From Verrucomicrobiia bacterium (GTDB lineage Bacteria; Verrucomicrobiota; Verrucomicrobiia; Palsa-1439), in the NCBI GenBank assembly GCA_022072455.1, contig JAJVHY010000015.1:62001-126000 (forward strand): DNA of 64,000 nucleotides, in the 5' to 3' direction. This document shows, piece by piece, positions 1 through 47,500 of the stretch. The position numbers were made by a program, and so were the translations under genes. The stretch's first letter is position 1. The number at the start of each line of letters is the position of its first letter. The notes under the pieces are model-generated. The model was not told the DNA's origin, made no database searches, and saw only the letters and a list, made by a program, of their open reading frames with translations.

Positions 1-858
1 TTCAACCAAGCCTCGAAAGCCTGGATTTTGGCCGAGAGCCGCACGGAGAATTTCCAAGGTTCGCGTGCGGCGCTCGACATCATGTGCCGGGAATTGGAAG
101 GCGCGATGGTCGGTGTGCGCACCAATGCCAACGGAACACAAACCCGGGTCAATCTTGTTACCTTTGAAAACTCCGGCGCGGCCGCAATCCCGACCGGTTC
201 CGGGACAATCACTCCAACCTTCGCCACCGGCTACGGCAATCTCAGCGTCACTTCGCCAAATGACGCCATTTTTTTCATTACTCAGGCTCCTGATTCGAAG
301 TCGAGCAGTAGTGACTATATTGATTTAGCCGAATGTGGCTACTTTGTCGGCTTCTCAACAGCCACGAGCGGCAATGGTGGTATTCCCCGGGGCTACTATG
401 GGCTATTCCGGCATTATGCGCGAAGTAGTGCCACAGCTAGTTGGGATTTCTTCGGCAACACGGCCAATTGGTGGAGCACTGTCCAAGCGGTTAAAACACC
501 ATTCTTGGATAATGTGATCCGCTTCGAACTCCGGTATGAGTATGCGAATCCTGATGTCGGTGTGACCAATGGCACCTCGATCGTCGAAAACTGGAACACC
601 ACGTCAGGTGGTCCATTGTCTTCCATCGTCCCCGACCCAACCACTCAATTGCCGCGCGCCTTTCACCTTCGGCTCTCCGTGATTGATCGCCGGTACGCCG
701 CCCGGTTGGCTGTGATCCTCAACAACGGATCGCTCGGGAGCAATCTCAACAATGTCCCTTACAACTTGGATGCGATTTCAAATACCGCACTCCAACGAAC
801 TCTGAAAGAAGGGATGCGGACCTTCTTCCGGACGGTTTATCCGCGAGGTGCCTCGTGA
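1..858 (+). CDS. Pseudopilin-like protein, Verru_Chthon cassette protein C-like (5' end outside the window)
   Basis: The reading frame is open from base 1, so the gene begins upstream. The first internal start, a TTG at 28, is probably not the real one. The visible 285 residues lack the N-terminal methylation and transmembrane segment expected of a pseudopilin, which should lie to the left. What remains is a soluble domain rich in Gly, Asn, Thr and aromatic residues; near its start a short stretch (SRAALDIMCRELEGAM) resembles the conserved helix after the pilin stalk in GspJ-like proteins. The stop overlaps the GTG start of the next gene (GTGA), so the two are probably co-translated. Position directly before a GspK-like protein, as in the Verru_Chthon cassettes of Verrucomicrobiota, supports the name. 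A general type II secretion minor pseudopilin is the alternative. Confidence 0.55.
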   Translation, partial: FNQASKAWILAESRTENFQGSRAALDIMCRELEGAMVGVRTNANGTQTRVNLVTFENSGAAAIPTGSGTITPTFATGYGNLSVTSPNDAIFFITQAPDSKSSSSDYIDLAECGYFVGFSTATSGNGGIPRGYYGLFRHYARSSATASWDFFGNTANWWSTVQAVKTPFLDNVIRFELRYEYANPDVGVTNGTSIVENWNTTSGGPLSSIVPDPTTQLPRAFHLRLSVIDRRYAARLAVILNNGSLGSNLNNVPYNLDAISNTALQRTLKEGMRTFFRTVYPRGAS

Positions 859-3461
859 AGACCCGCATCCTGAAATCTCAACGCAGTATCGCCTTGGTGT
901 TGACCTTGGCGGTCTTGGCGGTGCTCTCGTTGATTGTTATTGGTTTTCTGGTGAGCATGCGCACCGAGCAATCGGCAGCGCGCAACGCGGTTCATGTCAC
1001 GGTGGCCCGTCAGATGGGGCAGGCGGCCGTGGATAATGCGGTCTACTTGATGCGTGCCAACATGCCAGCCTTAGGGCCCAGTAATTCGTTTGTGACCATG
1101 GCCGGGGCCGCGGTTGCCTGGCCAACAGCGCCGCCAGCCGGCGGACAGCTCTTTTCTGTATCCAGCGCCGGCACGATTGACCTGAATGCTGACCAGGTGA
1201 TCGTTTCCGCCAGCAACAGCCTCTATGCCACAGCCGCTGACCGGCAAATTGTCGCCAATTGGGTTAATGTAGCTACCAACGGAACTGACGGGTCCGGGGG
1301 GCACCCGTTGATTGGCCGGTTTGCATTCTGGGTGGATGATGAGGCGGCGAAACTGAATATCAATGTCGCCAAAGAACGCTTTGACGCCCTCGGTAACACT
1401 ACGTCAAATCTGGATCTGACCGTGCTTTTGAACATTGCCTCCAGTCGCGCGGCTGCGACGCATGAATATGCCCGGACGAATGGCTTCTTCAGCCCAGAAC
1501 AATGGCAAATGGCCGGTAGCGGTGGCAGCGCCATCACCTACGGGTTTTACCAACAGCATCAGTTTTCCATCACCCCGTTCAGCACCGACGCCGGTCAAAC
1601 CCCGTGGGGTAGTCAGAAATTTTACCTCAACACTGACTTCGCTTCTTTCCAAGCCGAAATTGACGGCGGCGCAACAAACACCTTGGCCGCCCCGGTCTTG
1701 GTCAACTGGTTTGGTCAGACCTTCGCCGACAAGTATGGCGGCAATGTGAATCTCGTCAAACAAATGCTGGCCAACATGTGCGACTTCCGTTACTCACCCA
1801 GCGGCCCCACCAATACCTGTACCGGGGCCCAAGGCGGCTACCTCGACGCCAACGGCATTCCGCTCCATTACCTCGGGTTGAAACGGTACCCGCACCTCAA
1901 CGAAATTGGCGTCCAAGCCACTTACTTCCGCCCCAATGCCAATGAAATCCAATGCAAGCTCTGGTTTCTTGTCGAAGTGGTCAATCCCTACGATCAACAG
2001 TGGGGGATCGGCGGCCAAATTCGCCTGAGCATGGATAAACTCACCTACCGAGTCTCCAATGCATTGGGTGGCTGGAACTACACTTGTGGCTACGATACTG
2101 GTTGGGCTCAGAATGCCCTGTGTCCCAATCCGGCCAATGTGCCGACCTATGCCAGCGCTCAAGAAGTCACTTACGATATTACGGCGAATATCCCCGCCAA
2201 CAGTTCGGCAGTGTACGAGATTCCCGTTTGGGTTGGAAACCCGGAAGCCGGTGACACCAATACCGTGATTGACCGAGTCTTTGCGCGCGTCAATCGCGTG
2301 CGCTTGCTGCAAACCCAAAATGCGTCCACCTCCATCCGCGATTGGGCCGACACCAAAGATTTTGACACTCGCAACGGCGGCGTGGCCAACCAAGATCATT
2401 TTGCCTTCACCAACAACATTCAAGCTGTTGGGGCCACCGGCCCATTCCCCGGCTACAACGACAACAACACCCTTGGCATTGCCAAGAACGATCCGCGAGT
2501 TCGCCGCTTTGCCAACTGGGCACCCCCCGGAGATGGCACCGCTAAAGTCCAACCGTGGACACCGGTCGGCTTCGACAACGCTTATCCAACGACGCTGCCC
2601 AACGCCTCCGGGGCCCAGAATAGCGTCGTGGACATGGCTATCGGCACCGGCATTGCCAATCTCCCGAACGACATCCTGCCCTCCGGCGCGGGCTTGCCGG
2701 CGGGGACTAATGTCCTTACTTCCCCGTCGTTCTACATGAAGACCAGCACGAACAATCTCCCGTATGAATCCGTCGGCGAACTCGGTTACATTCACACTGG
2801 TCTCCAATGGCGAACGATCCGGCTCCAACCTTGGCCCGCGCCCGAATCCACCGCCAACTACATTCCCGATTGGGCGGTGCTCGACATCTTCTCCGTAACG
2901 AATGCGCCATTGTCTGGGCGGATCAACATTAATGGCATCGTCACCAACCTAGCCAGCGCGACCACCCCGCTGCGTCTCACTCCGCTCCAGGGTTTGCTTA
3001 CCGGGATCAACTCCGGCAATGGCCTCGGTCAAGCCACCGATCAACTCCGCATCGCCAGCAACATCTACAACCTTGTTTGGGCAGATACGGGGGCGCTGAG
3101 TTGGGCGGCGAAACGCAGCACTGGCGGTCGCACCTTCAACCCCGGCGTCTTCAACATGATCGGTGAACTTTGCGAGATTGACCTGATCTCCACCAACGGC
3201 AATCCCTCGACCATCTGGACCAACGACTTCGTCCGCGAGGGGCGGATCCGCACCTTTGCCAACCTCGTCACCACACGCTCCGACACCTTTACCGTGTGGG
3301 GCATTGGCCAGGCGATTCAGGACATCATCGATCCGAAAGGTACGGTTGATGCCGGTGATTTGATCACCGCAGAAGTCAAAGTTCAGGCGGTCGTCCAGCG
3401 CTACGAAGAGAACGGCCAAGCCAAATTCCGCACCCTCTACTTCCGCTATCTCACGCCCTGA
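855..3461 (+). CDS. Large GspK-like membrane-anchored protein, Verru_Chthon cassette protein A-like
   Basis: An 868-residue protein starting with GTG at 855, inside the previous stop. The N-terminus has a short basic leader and then one hydrophobic segment (about residues 11-34), followed by a polar helix (MRTEQSAARNAVHVTVARQM) typical of GspK/PilX-type minor pseudopilins. The rest is a long extracytoplasmic region rich in Asn, Thr and Gly, with phrases such as FWVDDEAAKLNINVA that recur in GspK-like proteins. It is much longer than ordinary GspK (about 320 residues), which fits the Verru_Chthon A family. The last part includes a GIGQAIQDI stretch and a strand-rich tail. Its role is unknown; it may help assemble a pilus-like fibre or secretion structure. 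Codons end mostly in C here, unlike the genes from 6000 onward. Confidence 0.6.
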   Translation: MKTRILKSQRSIALVLTLAVLAVLSLIVIGFLVSMRTEQSAARNAVHVTVARQMGQAAVDNAVYLMRANMPALGPSNSFVTMAGAAVAWPTAPPAGGQLFSVSSAGTIDLNADQVIVSASNSLYATAADRQIVANWVNVATNGTDGSGGHPLIGRFAFWVDDEAAKLNINVAKERFDALGNTTSNLDLTVLLNIASSRAAATHEYARTNGFFSPEQWQMAGSGGSAITYGFYQQHQFSITPFSTDAGQTPWGSQKFYLNTDFASFQAEIDGGATNTLAAPVLVNWFGQTFADKYGGNVNLVKQMLANMCDFRYSPSGPTNTCTGAQGGYLDANGIPLHYLGLKRYPHLNEIGVQATYFRPNANEIQCKLWFLVEVVNPYDQQWGIGGQIRLSMDKLTYRVSNALGGWNYTCGYDTGWAQNALCPNPANVPTYASAQEVTYDITANIPANSSAVYEIPVWVGNPEAGDTNTVIDRVFARVNRVRLLQTQNASTSIRDWADTKDFDTRNGGVANQDHFAFTNNIQAVGATGPFPGYNDNNTLGIAKNDPRVRRFANWAPPGDGTAKVQPWTPVGFDNAYPTTLPNASGAQNSVVDMAIGTGIANLPNDILPSGAGLPAGTNVLTSPSFYMKTSTNNLPYESVGELGYIHTGLQWRTIRLQPWPAPESTANYIPDWAVLDIFSVTNAPLSGRININGIVTNLASATTPLRLTPLQGLLTGINSGNGLGQATDQLRIASNIYNLVWADTGALSWAAKRSTGGRTFNPGVFNMIGELCEIDLISTNGNPSTIWTNDFVREGRIRTFANLVTTRSDTFTVWGIGQAIQDIIDPKGTVDAGDLITAEVKVQAVVQRYEENGQAKFRTLYFRYLTP

Positions 3462-3662
3462 GCGCGCGTGCGTTGCCGGATTGCTCTGGCGGCAGTGCTC
3501 TCAACTCGCTACTTCACAGAAGTGGCTTCAGCACGCGATTGACAACTTGTCCAGCAGTCATCCTGCGCCTGACAGCCTGTCTTGAATTGACGCGCGATCT
3601 GTTTCGCGCTGATCTATTCTAACCTTCTACACCGCAACTGGTTGTCAGTCTGTCGCGTGTCG

Positions 3663-3678
3663 TGGCATTGGCAGTGCT
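3663..3678 (+). promoter_or_regulatory. Possible sigma-54 (-24/-12) promoter before hypB
   Basis: TGGCATTGGCAGTGCT has the GG-N10-GC spacing required for sigma-54 and five of six bases of the TGGCAC box; the -12 box (GTGC) is weaker. It ends only 12 bases before the GTG start of hypB, so a transcript from it would be almost leaderless, which counts against it. The rest of the 229-bp gap between 3462 and 3690 shows no gene. Confidence 0.25.
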
Positions 3679-3690
3679 AAACCGCAGGAT

Positions 3691-4440
3691 GTGAATGTCA
3701 CTGTTCTGAAAAACGTCCTCGAAGCCAACGACTCCATCGCGGCCAAACTGCGCGAGCGACTGACCGCCAAGAAGATCACCACCGTCAATCTCATCAGCGC
3801 CCCGGGTGCCGGGAAAACCTCGCTCTTGGAATTGACCATCCCGCGTCTCAAATCCCATTGCCGGATCGGCGTTCTCGAAGGCGACATCGCCACCACGCGC
3901 GACGCCGACCGGATTGCCAAGCTCGACGTGCCGGTTGTCCAACTTCTCACGGGCGGCGCATGTCACCTCGAAGCGCCACTCGTCCAGCGCGGCTTGGATG
4001 CGCTCAACCTCGACGCCCTGGACCTCATCTTGATCGAGAACGTCGGCAACATCGCCTGCCCGGCCGAGTTCGATCTCGGCGAGACCTGCAAAGTCGGCAT
4101 CCTCAGCGTCACCGAAGGCCACGACAAACCCGGCAAATATCCGTTGCTCTTCCACGAGATCAGCGCGCTCGTGCTCAACAAAATTGATCTCCTGCCCTAC
4201 ACCGATTTCAACTTCGACCAGTTCGTCGCTGACTTCCGCAAGCTCAACGCGACTGCGCCGATCTTCCAAGTCTCCTGCAAAGCCGGTCAAGGCATCGCCC
4301 AATGGGCGCACTGGCTGGAACACGTGACCGCTGGTGAACTCGACATCGCGCCCCATCATCACCACGACGATCTGGCCGACGTCATCACACCGCACGCGCA
4401 CCCCCACAAAACTGAATTTGTGAAAGTGAGCCACGGATGA
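3691..4440 (+). CDS. hypB: [NiFe]-hydrogenase nickel incorporation GTPase HypB
   Basis: A 249-residue SIMIBI-class GTPase that helps insert nickel into the large subunit of [NiFe] hydrogenase. The P-loop SAPGAGKT is at residues 36-43, followed by the HypB signatures LEGDIATTRDADRI and TGGACHLEA (nickel/zinc-binding Cys-His at the switch region), LILIENVGN (Walker B/G3) and VLNKIDLLPY (NKxD guanine-specificity motif). It lacks the His-rich N-terminal stretch of some HypB proteins but has a His-rich C-terminal tail (HHHH and HAHPH) that could store metal. The start is GTG at 3691. Upstream the frame meets a stop within about 80 bases with no ATG, GTG or TTG, so this start is effectively forced, although the AGGA before it is too close for a normal ribosome site. 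The stop overlaps hypF by ATGA. No hypA lies beside it. Confidence 0.95.
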   Translation: MNVTVLKNVLEANDSIAAKLRERLTAKKITTVNLISAPGAGKTSLLELTIPRLKSHCRIGVLEGDIATTRDADRIAKLDVPVVQLLTGGACHLEAPLVQRGLDALNLDALDLILIENVGNIACPAEFDLGETCKVGILSVTEGHDKPGKYPLLFHEISALVLNKIDLLPYTDFNFDQFVADFRKLNATAPIFQVSCKAGQGIAQWAHWLEHVTAGELDIAPHHHHDDLADVITPHAHPHKTEFVKVSHG

Positions 4441-6659
4441 AAACTCGGGTACGGGCGCGGATTCACGGGCGCGTCCAAGGCGTCGGCTTCCGGCCGACCG
4501 TCTACCGGTATGCCACGCACCTCGGGCTGGCCGGGTACGTCTGCAACGGCCCGCATGGCGTCACCCTTGAAGTTGAAGGCGAAGACCTCAACGTCGGTTT
4601 GTTCTTCACGCGCCTGACCGGCGCACCGCCGCCGCAAGCGAGCATTGAAAACATCGAGAAGCAAGTCCTCGGCACCAAAGGCTACGAGCGGTTCGAAGTC
4701 ATCGAATCCGAACCCGACGGCGAGCTTGCGATGCACATCACGCCTGACTTGGCGCTCTGCGACGATTGCGCCCGCGAACTCCGCGATCCGCGCAACCGCC
4801 GGTATGGTTATGCGTTCACCAACTGCACCAACTGCGGCCCCCGCTTCACGATCATCCGCGACTTGCCCTACGACCGCGCCAACACCTCGATGGCCGGCTT
4901 CGCCATGTGCCCGCCGTGCGACCACGAGTATCACAACCCCCATGACCGGCGGTTCCACGCGCAACCTGACGCGTGCCCGAAGTGCGGCCCGCAATTACAG
5001 CTCATGGTGACCGGCGGGACAAGTGAGTTGAGTCAACCGCTGCAGAAGACCGAGGAATTGCTCCGGCGCGGGCGGATCGTTGCCATCAAGAGCCTGGGCG
5101 GTTTTCATCTCGCTTGCGATGCCTTGAGCCGCGAAGCCGTCGCGCGCCTCCGGCACCGCAAGCAACGCCCGCACAAATCATTCGCCGTCATGTTTCGCGA
5201 CCTGGTGGCGGTGCGGAAATATTGCCAGGTCAACGAGGCCGAAGAGGCGGAGTTGCTCAGTTCCGCGCATCCGATCGTCGTTCTGAAATCCAAGTCGCCG
5301 GCCCTCCAGCCCACCATTGCCCCCGACTCCAACACCATCGGCGCCTTTCTGCCCTACACGCCGCTGCATTGGCTGCTGCTGGAAAAATTCGACGCGTTGG
5401 TCATGACCTCCGCCAATCTCGCCGAGGAACCGATCGCCAGCGAAGATTCCGAATTGCCGGCGGTGTTCGACGCCGTGCTCACGCACAACCGCCCCATCGT
5501 CCACAAATGTGACGACTCTGTCGTGCGCGTCATCAATGGCCAGCGGCAATTCTTCCGCCGCGCCCGCGGCTTCGCGCCGAACGCGATTCGATTTGCGCCA
5601 GACTCCGCCGCGATCCTGGCCGTCGGTGGCGAACTCAAAAACACCTTCTGCCTCGCCCGCGCCGGCAACGCGTTTCTCTCGCAGCACATCGGCGACCTGA
5701 AAGATTTCAAGACCTACAACCATTTCGCCGCCGAAATTGCCGAGTGGCGGCGCCTGATGCGAGTCGAGCCGACGGTGGTCGCCCACGATTTGCACCCGGC
5801 GTATCTGTCGACCCGATTCGCCAAGGAATTCGTGGCCTCGACAAAAATCGGTGTCCAACACCATCACGCCCACATCGCGAGTGTGATGGCGGAACACGAC
5901 TTGCACGACTTCGTCATCGGCGTTGCGCTCGACGGCACCGGCTCCGGGACGGATGGCACGGTTTGGGGCGGCGAAGTTCTCGTGGCGAACCGGGCGGATT
6001 TCGAGCGCGTGGCGCATTTCAAACAATACGCCTTGCCGGGCGGTGACAAAGCCGTCGAAGAACCGTGGCGGATGGCGACGAGCATGTTGGCGGCGGAGGA
6101 ATTGATCCAACCGAATCGTCGCACGGAGCCGATTTTTAAGATGATCGAGGCGCAATTCAATTCACCGCTGACTTCGAGCGCCGGGCGGTTGTTTGATGCG
6201 GTGGCGGCCATTCTCGGTTTGGGGGATGTGGTGAGCTACGAAGCGCAGGCGGCCATCCGGCTGGAGGCAGTGGCGGACGCAACAGTGGAAGCCAAGTATC
6301 CCTTCGAGATCGCCTTTCACCAACAACCCTGGATTCTCAACTTTGGCGCGATGCTCCGGCAGATTATGACCGACAAACGCGCCGGTGTGCCGGTCAGCGA
6401 AATCTCCGCCAAATTCCACAACACGATTGCCGGCGCGATTGTGCAGACGTGCCGGTTCATTCGCGGGCAACGCAACCTCAATACCGTCGCCTTGTCGGGC
6501 GGCGTTTTTCAAAACGAACTGTTGTTGCGCCGGTTGGTCGAGAGTTTGCAGCGGAACTATTTCAAGGTCTACACCAACACCCGCGTCCCGCCCAACGACG
6601 GCGGATTGGCGCTCGGACAAGCTGCCGTTGCGGCAGCAAGGACGGCGGCATGTGCCTAG
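4437..6659 (+). CDS. hypF: Hydrogenase maturation carbamoyltransferase HypF
   Basis: A 740-residue protein, the usual HypF length. It uses carbamoyl phosphate and ATP to make the carbamoyl group that HypE turns into the cyanide ligand of the hydrogenase iron. Domains in order: acylphosphatase-like (residues about 3-90, GRVQGVGFRPTVYR); two zinc-finger units (CDDC/CTNC and CPPC/CPKC, about 108-185); a YrdC-like domain (about 200-390, with KSLGGFHLACDA and TSANLAEEPI); and a Kae1-like carbamoyltransferase domain (VQHHHAHIASVMAEH, ALDGTGSGTDGTVWGGE, ALSGGVFQN). All these signatures look intact. It starts inside the hypB stop and ends inside hypC. Composition changes within the gene: the first two thirds use C-ending codons and the last part uses G-ending codons. 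Confidence 0.97.
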   Translation: MKTRVRARIHGRVQGVGFRPTVYRYATHLGLAGYVCNGPHGVTLEVEGEDLNVGLFFTRLTGAPPPQASIENIEKQVLGTKGYERFEVIESEPDGELAMHITPDLALCDDCARELRDPRNRRYGYAFTNCTNCGPRFTIIRDLPYDRANTSMAGFAMCPPCDHEYHNPHDRRFHAQPDACPKCGPQLQLMVTGGTSELSQPLQKTEELLRRGRIVAIKSLGGFHLACDALSREAVARLRHRKQRPHKSFAVMFRDLVAVRKYCQVNEAEEAELLSSAHPIVVLKSKSPALQPTIAPDSNTIGAFLPYTPLHWLLLEKFDALVMTSANLAEEPIASEDSELPAVFDAVLTHNRPIVHKCDDSVVRVINGQRQFFRRARGFAPNAIRFAPDSAAILAVGGELKNTFCLARAGNAFLSQHIGDLKDFKTYNHFAAEIAEWRRLMRVEPTVVAHDLHPAYLSTRFAKEFVASTKIGVQHHHAHIASVMAEHDLHDFVIGVALDGTGSGTDGTVWGGEVLVANRADFERVAHFKQYALPGGDKAVEEPWRMATSMLAAEELIQPNRRTEPIFKMIEAQFNSPLTSSAGRLFDAVAAILGLGDVVSYEAQAAIRLEAVADATVEAKYPFEIAFHQQPWILNFGAMLRQIMTDKRAGVPVSEISAKFHNTIAGAIVQTCRFIRGQRNLNTVALSGGVFQNELLLRRLVESLQRNYFKVYTNTRVPPNDGGLALGQAAVAAARTAACA

Positions 6660-7923: not shown

Positions 7924-8921
7924 ACCGCCACCGGATTCTTCTGGCGCACGGGGGCGGCGGGTCGCTGACGCAGGAACTGATTCAGCGGTTGTTTGTGCCG
8001 GCGTTCAAGATGTCGTCGCTTGACGACGCGGCGGTGTTGGCGGTGGACCGGGTGCGGTTGGCGTTCACCACGGACAGCTATGTGGTCAAGCCGTACGTCT
8101 TTCCGGGCGGCGATATCGGGCGGCTGGCAGTTTGCGGGACAGTCAACGATTTGGCGGTGCAAGGCGCGCAACCGTTGTGGTTGAGCTTGAGTTTTATTTT
8201 GGAAGAAGGGTTACCGGTGGCGGACCTGGAAAGCATCGTCGCCTCCATTGCGACCACGGCCAGCGAGGCTGGGGTCACGATTGTGACGGGCGACACGAAG
8301 GTCGTCGAGCGCGGCCAGTGTGAAGGCTTGTACATCAACACGGCCGGGATTGGCCGGGTGGCGGGCCGCCGGTCGGTGAGTCATGCCGGGGCGAAGCCGG
8401 GCGATGTGGTGTTGATCAACGGCCCCATCGGCGAGCACGGCGTGGCGGTGATGAGTCGGCGCGCGGGGATTGAATTTCAAACGAGCGTGGTCAGCGATAG
8501 CGCACCGGTCTGGCCGTTGGTGAAGGCGATTCTTGATCTGGGCGCGGAGGTGCACACGTTGCGGGATCCGACGCGCGGCGGCGTGGCGGCGGCGTTGAAC
8601 GACATCGCGACGGCGTCGGGCGTGGGAATTCGGCTGGAAGAAAAAGCGCTGCCAATTGGCCGGGAAGTGCGCGGCGCGTGCGATTTGCTGGGCCTGGATC
8701 CGTTGACGATTGCGAACGAAGGCAAGCTGTTGGTGATTTGCCGGCAAGCCGACGCCGAGCGCGTGTTGGCGACGATGAAACGGCAGCCGCTCGGCCGGCA
8801 AGCCGTGGTGATTGGTGAAGTGATGGAAACCCCCAAGGCGATGGTGTTGCTCCGCACCACCATCGGCGGTGAACGCATCGTGGATATGCCCACGGGCGAG
8901 GATTTGCCGCGGATCTGCTGA
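7920..8921 (+). CDS. hypE: Hydrogenase maturation dehydratase HypE
   Basis: A 333-residue PurM/AIR-synthase-like ATPase that dehydrates the carbamoyl group on its C-terminal cysteine to a thiocyanate, the source of the cyanide ligands. The C-terminus reads LPRIC, with the terminal Cys required for the reaction. Other signatures: HGGGGSLTQELI at the N-terminus, TTDSYVVKP, VTGDTKVVERG, RDPTRGGVAAALNDIA and ANEGKLLVIC. The start overlaps the hypD stop. The gene closes the hypBFCDE run; nifJ follows after 8 bases and could share the transcript. Confidence 0.97.
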   Translation: MNRHRILLAHGGGGSLTQELIQRLFVPAFKMSSLDDAAVLAVDRVRLAFTTDSYVVKPYVFPGGDIGRLAVCGTVNDLAVQGAQPLWLSLSFILEEGLPVADLESIVASIATTASEAGVTIVTGDTKVVERGQCEGLYINTAGIGRVAGRRSVSHAGAKPGDVVLINGPIGEHGVAVMSRRAGIEFQTSVVSDSAPVWPLVKAILDLGAEVHTLRDPTRGGVAAALNDIATASGVGIRLEEKALPIGREVRGACDLLGLDPLTIANEGKLLVICRQADAERVLATMKRQPLGRQAVVIGEVMETPKAMVLLRTTIGGERIVDMPTGEDLPRIC

Positions 8922-8929
8922 AGGAATCT

Positions 8930-11900
8930 ATGAGCACGACAAAACGGAAGTTTGTAACGATGGACGGTAACGAAGCGGTCGCCCACGTGGCGTTCCGCAC
9001 AAACGAAGTGATCGCGATTTATCCGATCACCCCTTCGTCGCCGATGGGCGAATGGGCCGATGAATGGGCGGCCAAAACAGTCCCGAACATTTGGGGCACG
9101 GTGCCGTCGGTGATCGAGTTGCAGAGCGAAGCGGGCGCAGCCGGAACGGTGCATGGTGCATTGCAGACCGGATCGCTGACGACGACGTTCACGGCGTCGC
9201 AGGGATTGCTGTTGATGATCCCGAACATGTTCAAGATTGCCGGCGAATTGACGCCGTGTGTTTTCCACATTGCCGCGCGGTCGGTGGCGACGCATGCGTT
9301 GTCCATCTTCGGCGATCATTCGGATGTGATGGCGGCGCGCTCGACTGGTTGGGCGATGCTCTGCTCGAACTCAGTGCAAGAGGCAATGGACTTCGCGTTG
9401 ATTTCGCAGGCGGCCACGCTCAAGGCGCGGGTGCCGTTCCTGCATTTCTTTGACGGTTTCCGCACGTCGCACGAAGTCGCGAAAGTTGAGGTGCTGACAG
9501 AAGACGACATGCGCGCGATGATCGACGACGAGCTGGTGCTCGCGCATCGCGGACGTGGGTTGACGCCCGACCGGCCGGTCTTGCGCGGGACGGCGCAGAA
9601 CCCGGATGTCTTTTTCCAAGCCCGGGAAGGCTGCAATCCGTTTTACGCGGCGTGCCCGGATATTGTGCAGTCGGCGATGGACAAGTTCGCCGCCCTGACC
9701 GGCCGGCAATACAAACTCTACGAGTACTACGGCGCACCGGATGCCGAGCGCGTGATCGTGATGATGGGGTCGGGCTGCGAGGCGGCGCTGGAGACGGTGG
9801 ATTTTCTGAAAGGCAAGATCGGCGTGCTGAAAGTCCGGCTGTACCGGCCATTCGACACGGCGCGGTTTGTCGCGGCGTTGCCGGCGACGGTGAAATCGTT
9901 GGTGGTGCTCGACCGGACAAAAGAACCGGGCGCGACCGGCGAGCCGTTGTATCAGGACGTCGTGACGGCGTTGGCAGAACAGGGGCGGAAGATACCGGTC
10001 CTCGGTGGCCGGTATGGACTGTCGTCGAAGGAATTCACGCCGGCCATGGTCAAGGCGGTCTTTGAGGCGGACCGGAACCATTTCACAGTCGGCATCAACG
10101 ACGACGTGAGTCACACGAGTCTCGCGTTTGACCCGCATTTCTCGACGGAGTCGGACAAAGTCGTGCGTGCGGTGTTTTATGGACTCGGTGCAGACGGGAC
10201 CGTCGGCGCGAACAAAAACTCGATCAAGATTATCGGCGAAGAGACGAACAACTTTGCCCAAGGGTATTTTGTGTACGACTCGAAGAAGTCCGGCTCGATG
10301 ACCGTGTCGCATCTGCGGTTCGGGCCGGAGCCGATTCGCTCGACGTATCTGGTGTCGAAGGCGAATTTTGTGGCGTGTCACCAACCGATTTTCCTCGAAC
10401 GCTATGACATGCTCAAGGATGTCGTGACCGGCGGGACGTTCCTCTTGAATTCGCCGTTTGGGCCGGAGGTCGTTTGGAGCAAGTTGCCGCGCCCGATTCA
10501 AAAGAACATCGTGGAGAAACAGTTGAAGTTCTACGTGATTGACGCGGTGAAGGTCGCGCACAACAGCGGCATGGGCGGACGCATCAACACCGTCATGCAA
10601 GTATGTTTCTTCGCCATCTCGGGTGTGTTGCCTAAGGACGAAGCGATCAACGCGATCAAGTATTCGATCAAGAAGACCTACGGCAAGAAGGGCGATGAGA
10701 TCGTGAACATGAATCTCAAAGCCGTGGACTCGACGTTGGAGCACATGCACCAAGTGGTCGTACCGGCTGCCGTAAGCAGTGAGCTGGCGTTTGCGCCGCC
10801 TGTCTCCAAGGATGCGCCGGGCTTCGTGCGCAATGTCCTCGGTGAGATCATTGCCGGCCGCGGCGATCTGTTGCCGACGAGCGCGTTGCCCTGTGACGGC
10901 ACGTTCCCGACCGGCACGGCCCGGTATGAGAAGCGGAACATCGCGTTGGAGATACCGGTGTGGGATCCGAACGTCTGCATTCAATGCGGGAAATGCGCGA
11001 TGGTCTGCCCGCACGCGGTGATCCGGGCGAAAGTATATGAGCCGGTGACGACCATGCCGGCAACCTTCAAGTCCACAGCGGCGCGCGATAAGGATTGGAA
11101 GGAGACCGGGTTGAGTTTCACGATCCAGGTCGCGCCGGAAGATTGTACCGGCTGCGCGCTGTGCGTGGATGTGTGCCCGGCCAAGAACAAGAGTGAGCCG
11201 AAGCTCAAGGCGATCAACATGGCGGCACAACCGCCGATTCGCGAAACGGAAGTGGCGAACTGGGACTTCTTCCTGAAGATACCGGAACTGGACCGGCGGA
11301 AGATCAAAGTCGGCAGCATTCCGCATCAGCAATTGCAGCAGCCGTTGTTTGAGTTCAGCGGCGCGTGCGCGGGCTGCGGCGAGACGCCGTATGTGAAGTT
11401 GATGAGTCAGTTGTTCGGCGACCGGCTCATCGTCGCGAATGCGACCGGTTGCACTTCGATCTACGGCGGTAATTTGCCAACCACGCCGTGGACGGTCAAC
11501 GCGGAGGGACGCGGGCCGGCGTGGTGCAACTCGTTGTTCGAGGACAACGCGGAGTTTGGCTTGGGTTTCCGGGTGTCGCTCGATAAGCAGCAGGAGTTTG
11601 CCGGTGAGTTGCTCAAGAAACATGCGAGCATCGTCGGCGATGATTTGGTGACGGCCATTCTGACGGCGCCGCAAGCGACGGAAGCCGACATCTATGACCA
11701 ACGCCAGCGGGTGGAGGCGGCAAAACAGAAATTGCGCGGAGTCAGCACACCGGCGGCGAAGTCGCTGGCGGCGGTAATCGACATGCTCGTGAAGAAGAGC
11801 GTTTGGATCATGGGCGGCGACGGCTGGGCGTACGACATTGGGTTCGGCGGATTGGATCACGTGTTGGCGAGTGGCCGGAACGTGAACATCCTCGTGCTCG

Positions 11901-12469
11901 ACACCGAAGTGTACTCGAATACCGGCGGGCAGATGTCGAAGTCCACGCCGCGCGGCGCGGTGGCGAAGTTTGCGGCGAACGGCAAAACGCTCGGGAAGAA
12001 AGACCTCGGCCGGATCGCGATGACCTACGGGCACGTGTACGTGGCGAGTGTGGCGATGGGCGCGCGCGACGAGCACACGCTGCGGGCGTTCCTCGAAGCG
12101 GAGAGTTACGACGGGCCGTCGTTGATCATTGCCTACAGCCATTGCATCGCGCACGGCATCAACATGACCACGGCGATGCAGAATCAAAAAGCGGCGGTCA
12201 ACTCCGCGCAGTGGTTGCTCTACCGGTACGATCCGCGGCGGATCGCGACGGGCGACAATCCGTTGCAACTGGATTCCCGGCCACCGAAGCAACGGGTGGA
12301 TGAGTTCCTGATGATGGAGAACCGGTTCAAGATGTTGACCAAGAGCGACCCGGAACGGGCGAAGATGTTGTTCAAACAAGCACAGACCGATGCGGAGAAA
12401 CGCTTCAAGCGGTTCGAGTATCTGGCGACGTGGAAACCGAACGGCGCAGTCGCGACGAAGGAGATTTGA
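8930..12469 (+). CDS. nifJ: Pyruvate:ferredoxin (flavodoxin) oxidoreductase, single-chain
   Basis: A 1,179-residue single-chain PFOR that converts pyruvate and CoA to acetyl-CoA and CO2 and reduces ferredoxin or flavodoxin. The N-terminal part has the pyruvate-binding domain (DGNEAVAHVAFR, YPITPSSPMGE). Two ferredoxin-type [4Fe-4S] motifs occur at Cys683/686/689/693 and Cys739/742/745/749. The C-terminal TPP domain shows CAGCGETPYVKL, NATGCTSIYGGNLPTTPW and the GDGWAYDIG...NTGGQMSKSTP region. A good ribosome site (AAGGA) precedes the ATG. The reduced ferredoxin it makes is a natural electron source for a hydrogenase, consistent with the hyp genes just upstream, although no hydrogenase structural gene is in view. 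Confidence 0.97.
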   Translation: MSTTKRKFVTMDGNEAVAHVAFRTNEVIAIYPITPSSPMGEWADEWAAKTVPNIWGTVPSVIELQSEAGAAGTVHGALQTGSLTTTFTASQGLLLMIPNMFKIAGELTPCVFHIAARSVATHALSIFGDHSDVMAARSTGWAMLCSNSVQEAMDFALISQAATLKARVPFLHFFDGFRTSHEVAKVEVLTEDDMRAMIDDELVLAHRGRGLTPDRPVLRGTAQNPDVFFQAREGCNPFYAACPDIVQSAMDKFAALTGRQYKLYEYYGAPDAERVIVMMGSGCEAALETVDFLKGKIGVLKVRLYRPFDTARFVAALPATVKSLVVLDRTKEPGATGEPLYQDVVTALAEQGRKIPVLGGRYGLSSKEFTPAMVKAVFEADRNHFTVGINDDVSHTSLAFDPHFSTESDKVVRAVFYGLGADGTVGANKNSIKIIGEETNNFAQGYFVYDSKKSGSMTVSHLRFGPEPIRSTYLVSKANFVACHQPIFLERYDMLKDVVTGGTFLLNSPFGPEVVWSKLPRPIQKNIVEKQLKFYVIDAVKVAHNSGMGGRINTVMQVCFFAISGVLPKDEAINAIKYSIKKTYGKKGDEIVNMNLKAVDSTLEHMHQVVVPAAVSSELAFAPPVSKDAPGFVRNVLGEIIAGRGDLLPTSALPCDGTFPTGTARYEKRNIALEIPVWDPNVCIQCGKCAMVCPHAVIRAKVYEPVTTMPATFKSTAARDKDWKETGLSFTIQVAPEDCTGCALCVDVCPAKNKSEPKLKAINMAAQPPIRETEVANWDFFLKIPELDRRKIKVGSIPHQQLQQPLFEFSGACAGCGETPYVKLMSQLFGDRLIVANATGCTSIYGGNLPTTPWTVNAEGRGPAWCNSLFEDNAEFGLGFRVSLDKQQEFAGELLKKHASIVGDDLVTAILTAPQATEADIYDQRQRVEAAKQKLRGVSTPAAKSLAAVIDMLVKKSVWIMGGDGWAYDIGFGGLDHVLASGRNVNILVLDTEVYSNTGGQMSKSTPRGAVAKFAANGKTLGKKDLGRIAMTYGHVYVASVAMGARDEHTLRAFLEAESYDGPSLIIAYSHCIAHGINMTTAMQNQKAAVNSAQWLLYRYDPRRIATGDNPLQLDSRPPKQRVDEFLMMENRFKMLTKSDPERAKMLFKQAQTDAEKRFKRFEYLATWKPNGAVATKEI

Positions 12470-13484: not shown

Positions 13485-13868
13485 ATGAAATACAGTCGTG
13501 AAGAAGCCATCCAGCGCATCCGGCAATTCCTGGTCGCCAACCAGCGTCCCGAGGAGACGACCTGCCAGGCGGCGGCGCGCGTCGGCATCTTCTGCCATGG
13601 ATACGATCAATGGAGTGTCGCCCAACTGCGCGACCGGTACCCGTGGCTCGCCAAGAAGATGCCGGAGAACACGCCGCGCGAGGAGTTTCTCAAGCTGATC
13701 GTCGCGTGGGACGGCGCCCGTCAACTCGTGACGCACACCACGACGACGTGTGATGCCAAGGCGGCGGACCATGAGGGTTGTTTGGGTTTCGACCGATTCA
13801 GCAACTCGCAGCTCAAGCGGTTGTGTCCGCAGGTTTTCAACGCTGAGGATGAGATTGCGGATTGGTAG
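13485..13868 (+). CDS. Hypothetical protein, 127 residues, in the nifJ operon
   Basis: I do not recognise this family. The ATG at 13485 follows a strong ribosome site (GGGAGGTGAG) five bases after the stop of the dihydroorotate-dehydrogenase-like gene. The open frame extends further upstream, but that part overlaps real coding sequence. The protein is mainly helical and soluble, with an N-terminal helix (YSREEAIQRIRQFLVANQR), five cysteines spread along its length (in TCQA, FCHG, TCDA, GCLG and LCPQ) and an aromatic patch (GYDQWSV, RYPWLAKK). There is no signal peptide or membrane segment. The cysteines could bind a metal or be redox-active. Spacing suggests co-expression with PFOR; function unknown. 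Confidence 0.7.
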   Translation: MKYSREEAIQRIRQFLVANQRPEETTCQAAARVGIFCHGYDQWSVAQLRDRYPWLAKKMPENTPREEFLKLIVAWDGARQLVTHTTTTCDAKAADHEGCLGFDRFSNSQLKRLCPQVFNAEDEIADW

Positions 13869-13877
13869 TGGGCCGGA

Positions 13878-13952
13878 GCATAACGGTCAATATAGGTCAT
13901 CCACCGGTGGCCGCGTAGCGGGCAGCGGGTGGCTGCACCGAAGTTGTTAGAC
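13878..13952 (-). repeat. Possible integron attC-like recombination site
   Basis: On the minus strand, three bases after the stop of the membrane-protein gene, the sequence starts with GTCTAAC (fits the RYYYAAC R'' box) and 75 bases later ends with GTTATGC (a variant of the GTTRRRY R' box). Between them lie partly complementary arms (GGT...CCACC against GGTGG...ACC) around a GC-rich loop. A second GTTAGAC box on the same strand sits just before the gene start (14540-14546). Box order and spacing resemble an integron cassette, but pairing is imperfect and no integrase is present. Confidence 0.3.
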
Positions 13953-13954
13953 TC

Positions 13955-14536
13955 TCACACATTTGGAGTGGTTCTTCGCAACCTGAGGTGTAGTGCGGCT
14001 ACACAGCTGGCCACCACGGAGAAACACACGGCACTGAAAAGAACGGAAACACAGGCCACGCTCCTCGTCGACTGAACTAATGAACTAAGACCAGGAATCA
14101 CCGACACCAGTAATAGCCAACATGCCATGCCGGGAGTAAGAAAGCCCAAGACGACACTTCCCGGAATACCGACGTGCTTGTAAATGAGCAATAGCGTCGA
14201 AACCAATACGAGTGCTCCGGTGAAACCAACCAACGCACCGCGCAAGATAGCTCGGAAGAAGCACACGCCGTCTACCTCCCGAATCCTAGCGAACACTCGA
14301 TAGGCACAGATTACTCCTAGCCAGAGCGCGAAACAGGGCACACCGATGAAGAGTGCTACCAACGGACGGGATTGCGTCTCTACCACTGGACGCTCATGCC
14401 AAGATAGCGTTAAAGTGAACGCTTCCGGCGTCGCTACGGCCATAATGACAAGCACCGGCAACACGATCAGGAATAGCCATAGGAGTGCTAGCATAGACAC
14501 TCTGAGCCAAGGTGATCGTATTTCCATCGCATCCAC
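13955..14536 (-). CDS. Hypothetical multi-pass membrane protein
   Basis: A 193-residue integral membrane protein of unknown family. About five hydrophobic segments can be seen: near residues 11-35 (LALLWLFLIVLPVLVIMAVA), 58-80, 94-115, 122-146 and 155-178. The C-terminus is short and basic (RLRRTTPNV). The start may be GTG at 14536 or the in-frame ATG at 14527; neither has a clear ribosome site. It is on the strand opposite the nifJ operon and is bracketed by GTTAGAC/GTCTAAC boxes like an integron cassette. Its lower G+C and more mixed codon use than the neighbours also hint at transfer. No function can be assigned. Confidence 0.6.
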   Translation of the reverse strand: MDAMEIRSPWLRVSMLALLWLFLIVLPVLVIMAVATPEAFTLTLSWHERPVVETQSRPLVALFIGVPCFALWLGVICAYRVFARIREVDGVCFFRAILRGALVGFTGALVLVSTLLLIYKHVGIPGSVVLGFLTPGMACWLLLVSVIPGLSSLVQSTRSVACVSVLFSAVCFSVVASCVAALHLRLRRTTPNV

Positions 14537-14700
14537 TTAGTCTAACAAGTGATTATACAGGTCTGTCTATCATCCCATTTGGCGTGATAGACGACAGGGT
14601 GTGTAATGGACCGAACCCTTGGTTGCTTCGACACAGGGGGCTTGTAGCATGGGTGTCGTTGGGGGTCAATTCGCCTCGGCCCATGGTAGTGACTAAATTC

Positions 14701-14761
14701 GGAGGGCCACGCTTCTGCGTGGCCGCGTTTCGTGAATGGACGCGCAGATGCGCGTCCCTCC
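14701..14761. repeat. REP-like palindromic element with two perfect hairpins
   Basis: The 61-base element is bounded by GGAGGG and CCCTCC (inverted). Inside are two perfect 8-bp stems with 4-base loops: GGCCACGC-TTCT-GCGTGGCC at 14705-14724 and GGACGCGC-AGAT-GCGCGTCC at 14738-14757. The paired-hairpin design in non-coding DNA is typical of dispersed REP/BIME-type repeats. Only one copy is in this window, so its repeated nature is inferred. Confidence 0.5.
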
Positions 14762-14824
14762 GATGCGGTAGGACACTACCCGACCCACGGAGTGCAGTTC
14801 AAACATTTGGCCCAGAACTGTCGC

Positions 14825-14870
14825 CGCAGGCTTTACGCCTGCGAAGGCACGCGCACCCATAAAGGGTGCG
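14825..14870. repeat. Two short perfect hairpins, REP-like
   Basis: CGCAGGC-TTTAC-GCCTGCG at 14825-14843 and CGCACCC-ATAAA-GGGTGCG at 14852-14870. Both have perfect 7-bp stems and 5-base A/T-rich loops and are 8 bases apart. There is no T-run after either, so a simple intrinsic terminator is unlikely, but they lie past the 3' end of the minus-strand GH2 gene and could stop or stabilise its transcript. Confidence 0.45.
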
Positions 14871-14930
14871 GCTACAGCAAGTGTTGAACTAATTCAATCA
14901 ACTCACACCGCCACCAACGGGAGAACTTGG

Positions 14931-44541: not shown

Positions 44542-47500
44542 TTACTTGGCAGAGCCGAAGGTGTTGATGGCGGCGACGTAGGTGAGGAGTTTTTCGGCGG
44601 CAAAGGCTTCGTTGTTGACGACGACAATCACCGGCATTTTGATGGTTGAACCGGGATTGGTGACGTTGGTCATACCGAAGTTGGTCCACGCATCCTGCCA
44701 AGTGGATTTATTGAGCGAGATGACGAGTTGCCAGGTTTGAGTGGTTTGGTTGAAGGTCAAGCGGCAGCGGCCGGCTGGACTGGCGGCGCGACCTTTGGCG
44801 TCGAGGGTAAAGCTGACGATGTTGTTGCCGATGCTGAGGCTGAGGGGTTGGCCTTCGGGGATGAATTTGGGATCGAGCGGGAGGATCGCGGTGAGTTTGG
44901 CGGAGTCGGCGCTGGGGCGGGCGAAGTCGGATTTGAGTTGGAGGAGGGGGATCTCCATTTGACAGGGGATGCTGATGTTGCGATTCGCGATTTGGGTGCC
45001 GAGGCTGTCGTTGCGGGAGGCGGCGACGCGATAGGTGCCGCAGTCAGCGTAGGCATGGGTCGGTTGGCCGAGGGTGCTCGTGTTGCTGTCGCCAAAGTTC
45101 CATTGATAGGTGGTTGACCCGCTCGGTAGGGTCGTGCCTTTGAAGCGGAAGGTGGTGGGATCGCCAGCGACCACAATTGGGAGGCCGGCGACTTCAGTCC
45201 AAGAGTTGACGGCTACAGCTGGGGCGGGTGTGGTGTTGCCGCCGCCGGAGGTTTCGCCCGGGGGCAACACAGTGACTTGGAAGCTGGTGAAGGTGGTGAA
45301 GAACCCGTCTTTGACGCTGAGCGTGATGATGGCTGTGCCGGTTTGCCCGTAAATCGGCGTGAGGCTGACGGTGCGGATGTTGCCTTTCCCGCTGAAGCTG
45401 ATGTTGCCGGTTGGGATCAGGGCGGGATTAGACGAAGTTCGACCAAGGCTCAGGCGCGATGCTTTGGTGCGATCATCGGCGATCGTGAAGGGGAGGTGGA
45501 GGAGCGATGTGTTCGCCTGAATGGATTGGGCAGACAAACTCGTGATGGTCGGGGGGCGGTTGGTGACAGGGGCGACCACATCGAGAGTGAAGCTCGTGGT
45601 GCTGGCCTGGTTGCCATCGGCCGCGCGGACGGTGATGGTGGTTTTGCCGCTGCGTTGGCTGCTGGGGGTGGCGGCGACGGTCCGGTAGTGGCCGCTGCCC
45701 GCGAGGACAATCGAGTTGTTTGGTACGAGATCGGTGTTCGAGGAGCTGACGGTGATGGTCAGGTTGTCTGGGGAGTTGCTGGCGTCACTGACCATGAAGG
45801 GGAGCGGCCCGGCGGTGGAGTTCGTGCTGACCGTCTGATTGGCGATGCGTGTCAGTTCCGGAGGAGCGTCGTCCGGGTTGGTGGAATTGACGGTGAGGAT
45901 AAAGGCGGTGCTGGCGGACAGGTTGCCGTCACTGACGGTGAGCGTAATGGTGGCGGTACCGGTCTGGTTGGCGGCCGGCGTGACGGTGATGGTGCGGTTA
46001 CCGGCAGAGCCCCCGAGGGTGATGCCGGAGTTGGGAACGAGAGAAGTGTTGGAGGAACTGGCGGTCAGGGTGAGGCTGCCGGCGGCGGTTTGCGAATCAG
46101 CGACGCTGACGGCCAGCGGTCCCAACGTGGTGTTGGCGTCAATTGATTGGGCGCCGAGGCCGGTGATGGTGGGGGCGGTGTTCACGGCGTTGACTGTCAC
46201 GGTGAAAACGGTGCTGATGTTCAAGCTGCCGTCGCTGACGGTGAGGGTGATGGTGGCAGTGCCGGTTTGGTTGGCGGCTGGGGTGACGGTAACGGTGCGA
46301 TTCGCGCCGCTGCCGCCGAACGTGATGGCGTTATTGGGGATGAGGGACGTGTTGGATGAGTTGGCGGTCAGGGTGAGGCTGCCAGCGGCGGTTTGCGCAT
46401 CGCCAATGGTGATGGCGAGCGGGCCGGCGGAGGTGTTGGCGTTGATCGACTGGTTGGCCACGCTCGAAATCGTGGGCGGAGTGTTTGGCGGGGCCGCGGC
46501 GTTGACGGTGATTGTGAACGATGTGCTGGCAGTCAAGCTTCCGTCGCTGACGGTGAGCGCAATCGTGGCTGTCCCGGTTTGATTCGCAGCGGGATTGATG
46601 GTGACGGTGCGACTCGAGCCGCTGCCGCCAATAATGATGGCGTTGTTGGGGACGAGGGAAGTGTTGGAGGAACTCGCGGTTAGTGTCAGGCTGCCGGCGG
46701 AGGTTTCAGAGTCACCAATGGTCAGATTGAGCGGGCCCACAGTGGTGTTCGTGTTGACCGTCTGATTGCTCAAACCTGAGATCGACGGGCTGGTGTTGCC
46801 GGCGCTGACTACCACGAAGAATGAGATAAAAGAGGTCAGGCTGCCGTCGCTGACGGTGAGGGTGATGGTGGCGGTGCCGGATTGATTGGCGGCCGGTGTG
46901 ATGGTGACTGTGCGATTGGCTCCGCTACCGCCGAACGTGATGCCGCTAGTCGGAACGAGTGACGTGTTGGAGGAATCGGCGGACAGGGTCAGACTGGCAG
47001 CCGCCGTCTGCGAATCACCGATCGTAATAGCCAAGGGGCCGGTTGAGGTATTGGCATTAATCGAGCGGTCACCCGGATTGGTGATAGTTGGCGCAGTATT
47101 CACGGCATTGACGGTGACGGTGAAGGAGGCGTTGGCGGACAAGCTGCCGTCGCTCACGGTGAGCGTGATGGTGGCGGTACCGGATTGATTGGCGGCCGGA
47201 GTGACGGTGACGGTGCGGCTGGAGCCGGAGCCACCGAGGGCAATGCCGGAATTGGGAACGACTGAAGTGTTAGAGGAACTGGCGGAGAGTGTGAGACTGC
47301 CAGCGGCAGTTTGCGAATCAGCAACGGTGATCGTCAAGGGGCCGATGGATGTATTGGCGCTGGTGGTGCGGTTGCCAGGGTTGGTGATGGTGGGGGCGGT
47401 ATTGACGGTGTTGACGGTGACGGTGAAGGAGGTGTTGGCGGACAAACTGCCATCGCTGACGGTGAGGGTGATGGTGGCGGTGCCGGATTGATTGGCGGCC

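Follow-up and report, generated by a model that had tools for sequence, protein, structure and literature searches.

An apparently native integron gene cassette standing alone behind a conserved operon, and cassette arrays with mostly GAT-core attC sites, in a Verrucomicrobiia genome

Integron gene cassettes reportedly also enter the chromosome at places that are neither attI nor attC sites, in the 'attG' insertions that Loot et al. are said to have described (2024, Nat Microbiol; as referred to in PMC12444791 and PMC12901181). For the attC site itself, the available parts of three papers give the consensus RYYYAAC/GTTRRRY (PMC12901181, PMC3053210, PMC7370490). Looser sites are on record: three of eight attC representatives of Treponema denticola have no identifiable AAC according to an excerpt of PMC3607928, and the portion at hand of PMC10127599, whose references on this point include Francia 1993 and, from 2010, a paper in Nucleic Acids Res, states that IntI1 requires only 5'-GNT-3' and that cleavage at GAT occurs, especially at secondary sites. 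For CALIN elements, IntegronFinder 2 sets a default threshold of two attC sites (PMC9024848, available part), and the same part of that text does not name the phylum Verrucomicrobia; little on integrons in Verrucomicrobia was found in print.

The locus analysed here lies in the draft genome of a Verrucomicrobiia bacterium (4.82 Mb in 36 contigs; G000 in our numbering), within a window of 64 kb, by which we mean the whole stretch analysed, i.e. positions 62001-126000 of contig C9. Directly behind a conserved operon, this window contains what is very probably an integron gene cassette that stems from the genome's own attC family, and the cassette apparently came from the bacterium's own integron. 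The T following the first core G is counted as its first base and the G in the second core as its last, and an arrow (↓) marks the cut:

13884..14545, minus strand: lone gene cassette of 662 bp, with matching core ends GTTAGACT / AGTCTAAC and the canonical order of ORF, then attC
14540..14546, minus strand: left boundary core G↓TTAGAC, complementary without mismatch to the R'' of the cassette itself; the G is the target's, and TTAGAC is the start of the cassette
13955..14536, minus strand: 193-aa ORF (ORF call), whose predicted product is a membrane protein with some six hydrophobic segments (hydropathy)
13878..13952, minus strand: attC site of 75 bp, in the order R''-L''-loop-L'-R' (match to covariance model R3, BLAST to an attC site on C12, fold)
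13946..13952, minus strand: R'' box GTCTAAC, 7/7 to RYYYAAC (sequence)
13928..13939, minus strand: L'' arm, with C13936 (plus-strand numbering) unpaired, i.e. extrahelical in the folded bottom strand (fold)
13895..13905, minus strand: L' arm, pairing with L'' (fold)
13878..13884, minus strand: R' box G↓TTATGC, 6/7 to GTTRRRY, of which TTATGC is 3' flank (sequence)
13485..13868, plus strand: p127, a conserved 127-aa gene at the end of a POR-DHODH-p127 block common to relatives

Along the minus strand one thus reads TATAATCACTTG, the cut, TTAGACTAAGTGGATGCGATG, the 193-aa ORF with its stop codon, GTCTAAC, ATATTGACCG, the second cut and TTATGCTCCGG. A preliminary description of this DNA had quoted three heptamers and interpreted them as a gene followed by its attC site, and all three are indeed found on the minus strand: GTTAGAC at 14546-14540, 3 bases ahead of the GTG start codon (14536), GTCTAAC at 13952-13946, 2 bases past the stop codon, and GTTATGC at 13884-13878. 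The order of gene and attC site proposed there is borne out by matching ends and by an attC model match. The cassette start, G↓TTAGACT, and the cassette's own R'' are exact complements over 8/8 bases in the orientation that a cassette requires, and GTTAGACT has only two occurrences in the 64 kb, counting both strands, which are precisely the two cassette ends. The gene had also been said to differ in composition; with a G+C content of 0.538 against 0.613 for the window, a level equally low in 32 of 1267 sliding 663-bp windows, the cassette does so. The pattern of GTTAGACT plus five bases plus ATG has no match anywhere in the genome, and no sigma-70-like promoter was found adjoining the cassette.

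That a cassette begins with the complement of its own R'' is a rule that other cassettes follow as well. Start core and R'' agree in 6/6 bases in 141 of 180 neighbouring site pairs from this and related genomes (repeated cassettes counted); this breaks down into 9/19 pairs in the genome itself (shuffle mean 1.9, maximum 7) and 132/161 in relatives (shuffle mean 27, maximum 45).

The attC site in the window has a canonical GTT core. Its bottom strand gives the more stable fold, at -16.2 kcal/mol (z -2.86) against -10.8 kcal/mol (z -1.39) for the top strand. The bottom-strand stem takes the form R-spacer-L with one unpaired C in the L arm, so that one extrahelical base is clear, whereas the second one that is present in array sites is not. 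By BLAST against its own genome, the site aligns over 58 bp with 88% identity to an attC site at C12:159337-159393 (E 2.2e-13), and its last 22 bases weakly resemble C12:157969-157990 (91%, E 0.1). Three covariance models find it with different force. The first, R1, was built from five sites of the array on C12; with E values up to 10 it finds 23 places in the genome, located on C12, C31, C30, C19, C23, C14, C15 and in the window, where its match is weak (17.1 bits, E 3.9 genome-wide). The second, R2, gives the window site 43.3 bits, which we do not take as evidence because this site is part of the training set of R2; at E 1e-4, 96 of the 286 class genomes, our own included, have sites that match R2. 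The third, R3, was built from 142 attC sites, all from other genomes and collected by way of R2, which makes it independent of the letters of the window, if not of the search path. With R3 the site is the top match in the entire 64-kb window (19.3 bits, E 0.0084; the runner-up has 14.4 bits), and most sites in the genome's own arrays score strongly, with up to 61.4 bits. A search of the window with Rfam at gathering thresholds gave no match, and Rfam may lack an attC family.

By its boundaries, its gene-attC order, its bottom-strand hairpin with an extrahelical base and a start core complementary to its own R'', the unit is thus like other integron gene cassettes; unlike typical ones, it is single, lies outside arrays and carries a gene without a known family. 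At E 0.1 neither Pfam nor NCBIfam has a family that matches the 193-aa protein, no homologue was found on plasmids, and the protein's only match in IMG/VR covers 17 residues. In its own genome the gene was found at a single place. Among 113 genomes searched, including this one, there is one weak match besides the gene itself (E 8e-4, 40% identity over residues 100-168, with in-frame stops).

Comparison with relatives shows what surrounds the cassette. When 57 genomes were searched, our own included, p127 was found in G006, G007, G009 and G010, with 64-71% identity to the counterpart here, and all four of these relatives have retained POR, the DHODH-like gene and p127. The 193-aa gene has no match in any of their four stretches with this block, i.e. 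it does not show, at this place, the stable vertical ancestry that would speak against a mobile origin, and its absence from syntenic relatives makes the cassette an addition at the p127 locus. The DNA similarity of the relatives breaks off before p127 reaches its stop codon or at most one base from this codon. On the other side, upstream of the cassette start, the window contains an inverted repeat, GTCTATCA-12 nt-TGATAGAC, at 14565-14592, whose arms resemble GAT-type R boxes and are without L arms. Further upstream, at 14685-14881, lie two dispersed palindromic repeats; positions 14548-14930 used as a query have 32 genomic matches including the self-match, and the other 31 all fall on 14685-14881.

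Taken together, the 8-base match of the ends, the attC hit, the homology to array sites and the absence in relatives define a lone, single-attC, CALIN-like cassette. The preliminary description had suggested a lone cassette of the CALIN type. It is indeed alone, with no intI alongside, and in this respect the locus is like CALIN; with one credible attC site in the window, however, it remains below the default threshold of two, and, unlike CALIN, it has related arrays and intI elsewhere in the draft genome, on separate contigs. A complete integron at the locus, with intI and attI beside the cassette, was not found, nor is there any match to the integrase profile TIGR02249 on contig C9.

The cassette was probably placed here by off-target, integrase-catalysed insertion at a secondary site. 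In such an 'attG'-like event an IntI-type integrase would recombine the folded bottom strand of the cassette attC with a secondary G↓TT target directly 3' of the p127 gene, behind the conserved operon, and the footprint would consist of the target G plus TTAGAC at one end and the attC G plus TTATGC at the other. An active IntI could in principle excise the cassette again. The putative empty target reads CACTTG↓TTATGC. As in attG insertions, this chromosomal site would be neither attI nor attC; unlike in attG experiments, the window cassette is a natural footprint and its empty site is not seen. The 67 bases 3' of p127 in the four relatives look mutually unrelated, so that the empty target is not visible there and secondary-site insertion can only be inferred.

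The main rival to insertion at a secondary site is decay of an array, in which the cassette would be all that is left of a local integron or CALIN after the loss of its other cassettes and its intI, and G↓TTATGC would be the start of a vanished neighbour instead of a secondary target. We regard this as possible but rather unlikely. Single or few attC matches do occur on C14, C15 and C19 as well, and within 3 kb there is no matching start core for the site on C15 or for either site on C19 and only a 6-base one for that on C14; moreover, the arms of the inverted repeat at 14565-14592 are similar to GAT-type R boxes. However, there is no second credible attC site in the window or in C9:50000-62000 to its left, the 5' flank of the cassette is without an L' arm, and the cassette edge is 15 bp away from the stop codon of p127, a conserved gene.

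Readings in which no integron is involved appear far less probable. An ordinary gene might by chance be followed by an inverted repeat or a hairpin of the terminator type and be framed by core-like heptamers, and the modest attC score as well as the high chance frequency of GTTRRRY-type heptamers would fit this; yet the 8-mer that is unique to the two ends, the homology to array attC sites, the match to a model from other genomes and the absence in syntenic relatives make coincidence a very improbable explanation. Insertion as a transposon, MITE or REP-type element is hardly credible either: dispersed palindromic repeats abound in the genome and some of them adjoin the 193-aa gene (14685-14881), but these repeats lie outside the cassette, and the cassette ends are integron core sites.

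Components of an integron are found on other contigs. The preliminary description had noted the absence of an integrase, which is correct for the window but not for the genome: the copies and intI that it proposed to look for turned up as integrase genes and related arrays, though not as a second copy of the 193-aa gene. At E 1e-5, TIGR02249 has matches on C3, C35, C23, C12, C11, C27, C13, C22 and C6. C3:1-549 is an integrase piece that begins at the contig edge and covers profile positions 132-314 (290.6 bits, above the TIGR02249 cut-off), and its closest solved structure is IntI4 (2a3v, E 2e-55). An N-terminal piece at C35:20162-20746 covers positions 1-195 (249.5 bits, below the cut-off), beyond which this intI copy passes into foreign sequence. 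These two incomplete copies, one at the end of C35 and one at the start of C3, have 176 bases in common with one difference, because of which they likely represent two gene copies or else two strains. None of the intI genes in the assembly is full-length. On C35, intI and the cassettes diverge, which is the arrangement of integrons; the first cassette starts G↓ATATGCG and matches its own R'' over 7 bases, and a blastn comparison of the C35 attI region with phages found nothing. Across the class, an integron integrase is found at E 1e-60 in 78 of 286 genomes, our own included. On C23 a further integrase copy is split into two pieces, one of which contains two TGA codons. Divergent from these pieces, at about 11217-11565 of locus L011, lies one GTT cassette, which begins with GTTCGACT and there agrees with its own R'' over 8 bases; cassette and integrase pieces look like the remnant of a second integron.

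A BLAST search of the genome with the window attC site as the query led to the arrays themselves:

C12 (locus L024), 8200-12096: own-genome cassette array
C31 (L053), 504-5228: own-genome cassette array
C35 (L010), 11094-11686: own-genome cassette array
C30 (L054), 117-3561: own-genome cassette array

A strict regular-expression scan for R''/R' boxes found only the window's own site convincing in stretches of C3, C35, C23 and C9; in stretches of C12, C19, C21, C25 and C6 it gave no convincing site and missed all GAT sites of C12, because the array sites depart from the strict consensus. The array on C12 forms the end of the contig and consists of eight small minus-strand ORFs, each with at least one hydrophobic segment and with attC-type hairpins behind them, and is interrupted once by IS-like sequence. 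In the array on C31, an IS110-family transposase gene (Pfam DEDD_Tnp_IS110, 3.5e-22; L053 988-2292) lies inside an attC site. Elements of the IS1111 type that target attC sites are known (PMC11187229, available part), which supports the identity of the IS-interrupted sites on C31 and C12 as attC. The same IS/attC junction sequence is seen by eye in an attC site on C12 (L024, about 10100-10460), and on C30 (L054, about 690-1646) there is an ORF that by eye is REP-associated transposase-like.

In contrast to cassettes with RYYYAAC/GTTRRRY sites, the array sites of this genome mostly have ATC/GAT. Of 26 readable sites, 17 have GAT (in 16 distinct contexts), 8 have GTT, the window site included, and 1 has GCT; this count covers 26 of 30 rows, leaving aside a GAT-type match at 47145-47192 of the window, which is not credible (E 0.87), and three without R columns. 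The GAT sites combine G↓ATRRRY with RYYYATC, their cassette ends mostly match, and they occur in arrays mixed with GTT cassettes. Where both ends of GAT cassettes can be seen (n=29; 11 here, 18 in relatives), 25 also start with GAT, and all 25 of these agree with R'' in 6/6 bases; the 146 GTT cassettes include 140 with a GTT start and 116 with 6/6 agreement between start and own R''. The change from GTT to GAT thus does not look like decay. C31 carries the same cassette twice (about 115-565 and 2630-3075); the two are identical for 25 bases or more as far as the crossover G, which is followed by TTGGGATG in one case and by ATAGACTT in the other, i.e. the next cassette is once of the GTT type and once of the GAT type. 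A duplicate with two different followers implies that the cut after G is used beside both core types. We consider it quite probable that the native attC cores have mostly shifted from GTT/AAC to GAT/ATC, that both types share arrays, in cassettes whose two ends hardly ever differ in the second base, and that the integrase recombines both, cutting after the G.

Elsewhere GAT cores are rarer. A set of 40 stretches, selected non-randomly from the best R2 matches in 34 further genomes of the class, has 214 sites, of which 193 are GTT, 20 GAT and 1 CTT, with the GAT sites confined to G084 (17/48), G225 (2/5) and G026 (1/7). G084, a one-contig genome of the same class, has its 17 GAT and 31 GTT sites mixed in arrays, a count that takes in a repeated stretch of array. 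At named integrase loci across bacteria (the best 80 of 574), 87 sites comprise 85 GTT, 1 CTT, 1 AAT and 0 GAT, and 68 IMG/VR loci show GTT in 33/33 sites. A single integrase clade behind the use of GAT was considered and rejected, with three changes needed in a tree with 3 of 160 rows labelled: the integrases of G084 and G026 form no single clade with our own, in a placement that leaves out the integrase of G225 and whose bootstrap support is not settled.

The closest parallel is the relaxed triplet of IntI1, which likewise allows GAT as a core with the cut after G. For IntI1, however, this concerns secondary sites, whereas here it concerns native cassettes, mostly with GAT at both ends, and the majority of sites. 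In the literature searched, of which coverage was partial, we found no description of native GAT-core arrays.

Overall, the lone cassette represents a natural case of an integron gene having left its array. The mixed GAT/GTT arrays matter more than this cassette, since the literature, as far as its available parts go, gives AAC/GTT as the conserved part of attC, and the strict-consensus scan missed the GAT sites of C12. GAT-core sites are a natural variant of the attC consensus, and the bacterium's own integron stands out slightly in that the majority of its recombination sites deviate from the textbook core at one base. If the shift in the native cores is real, it would be a natural and self-consistent relaxation of the integron core-site consensus, and these arrays are natural substrates for testing how strict an integrase is at the second core base and in the matching of its partner sites.
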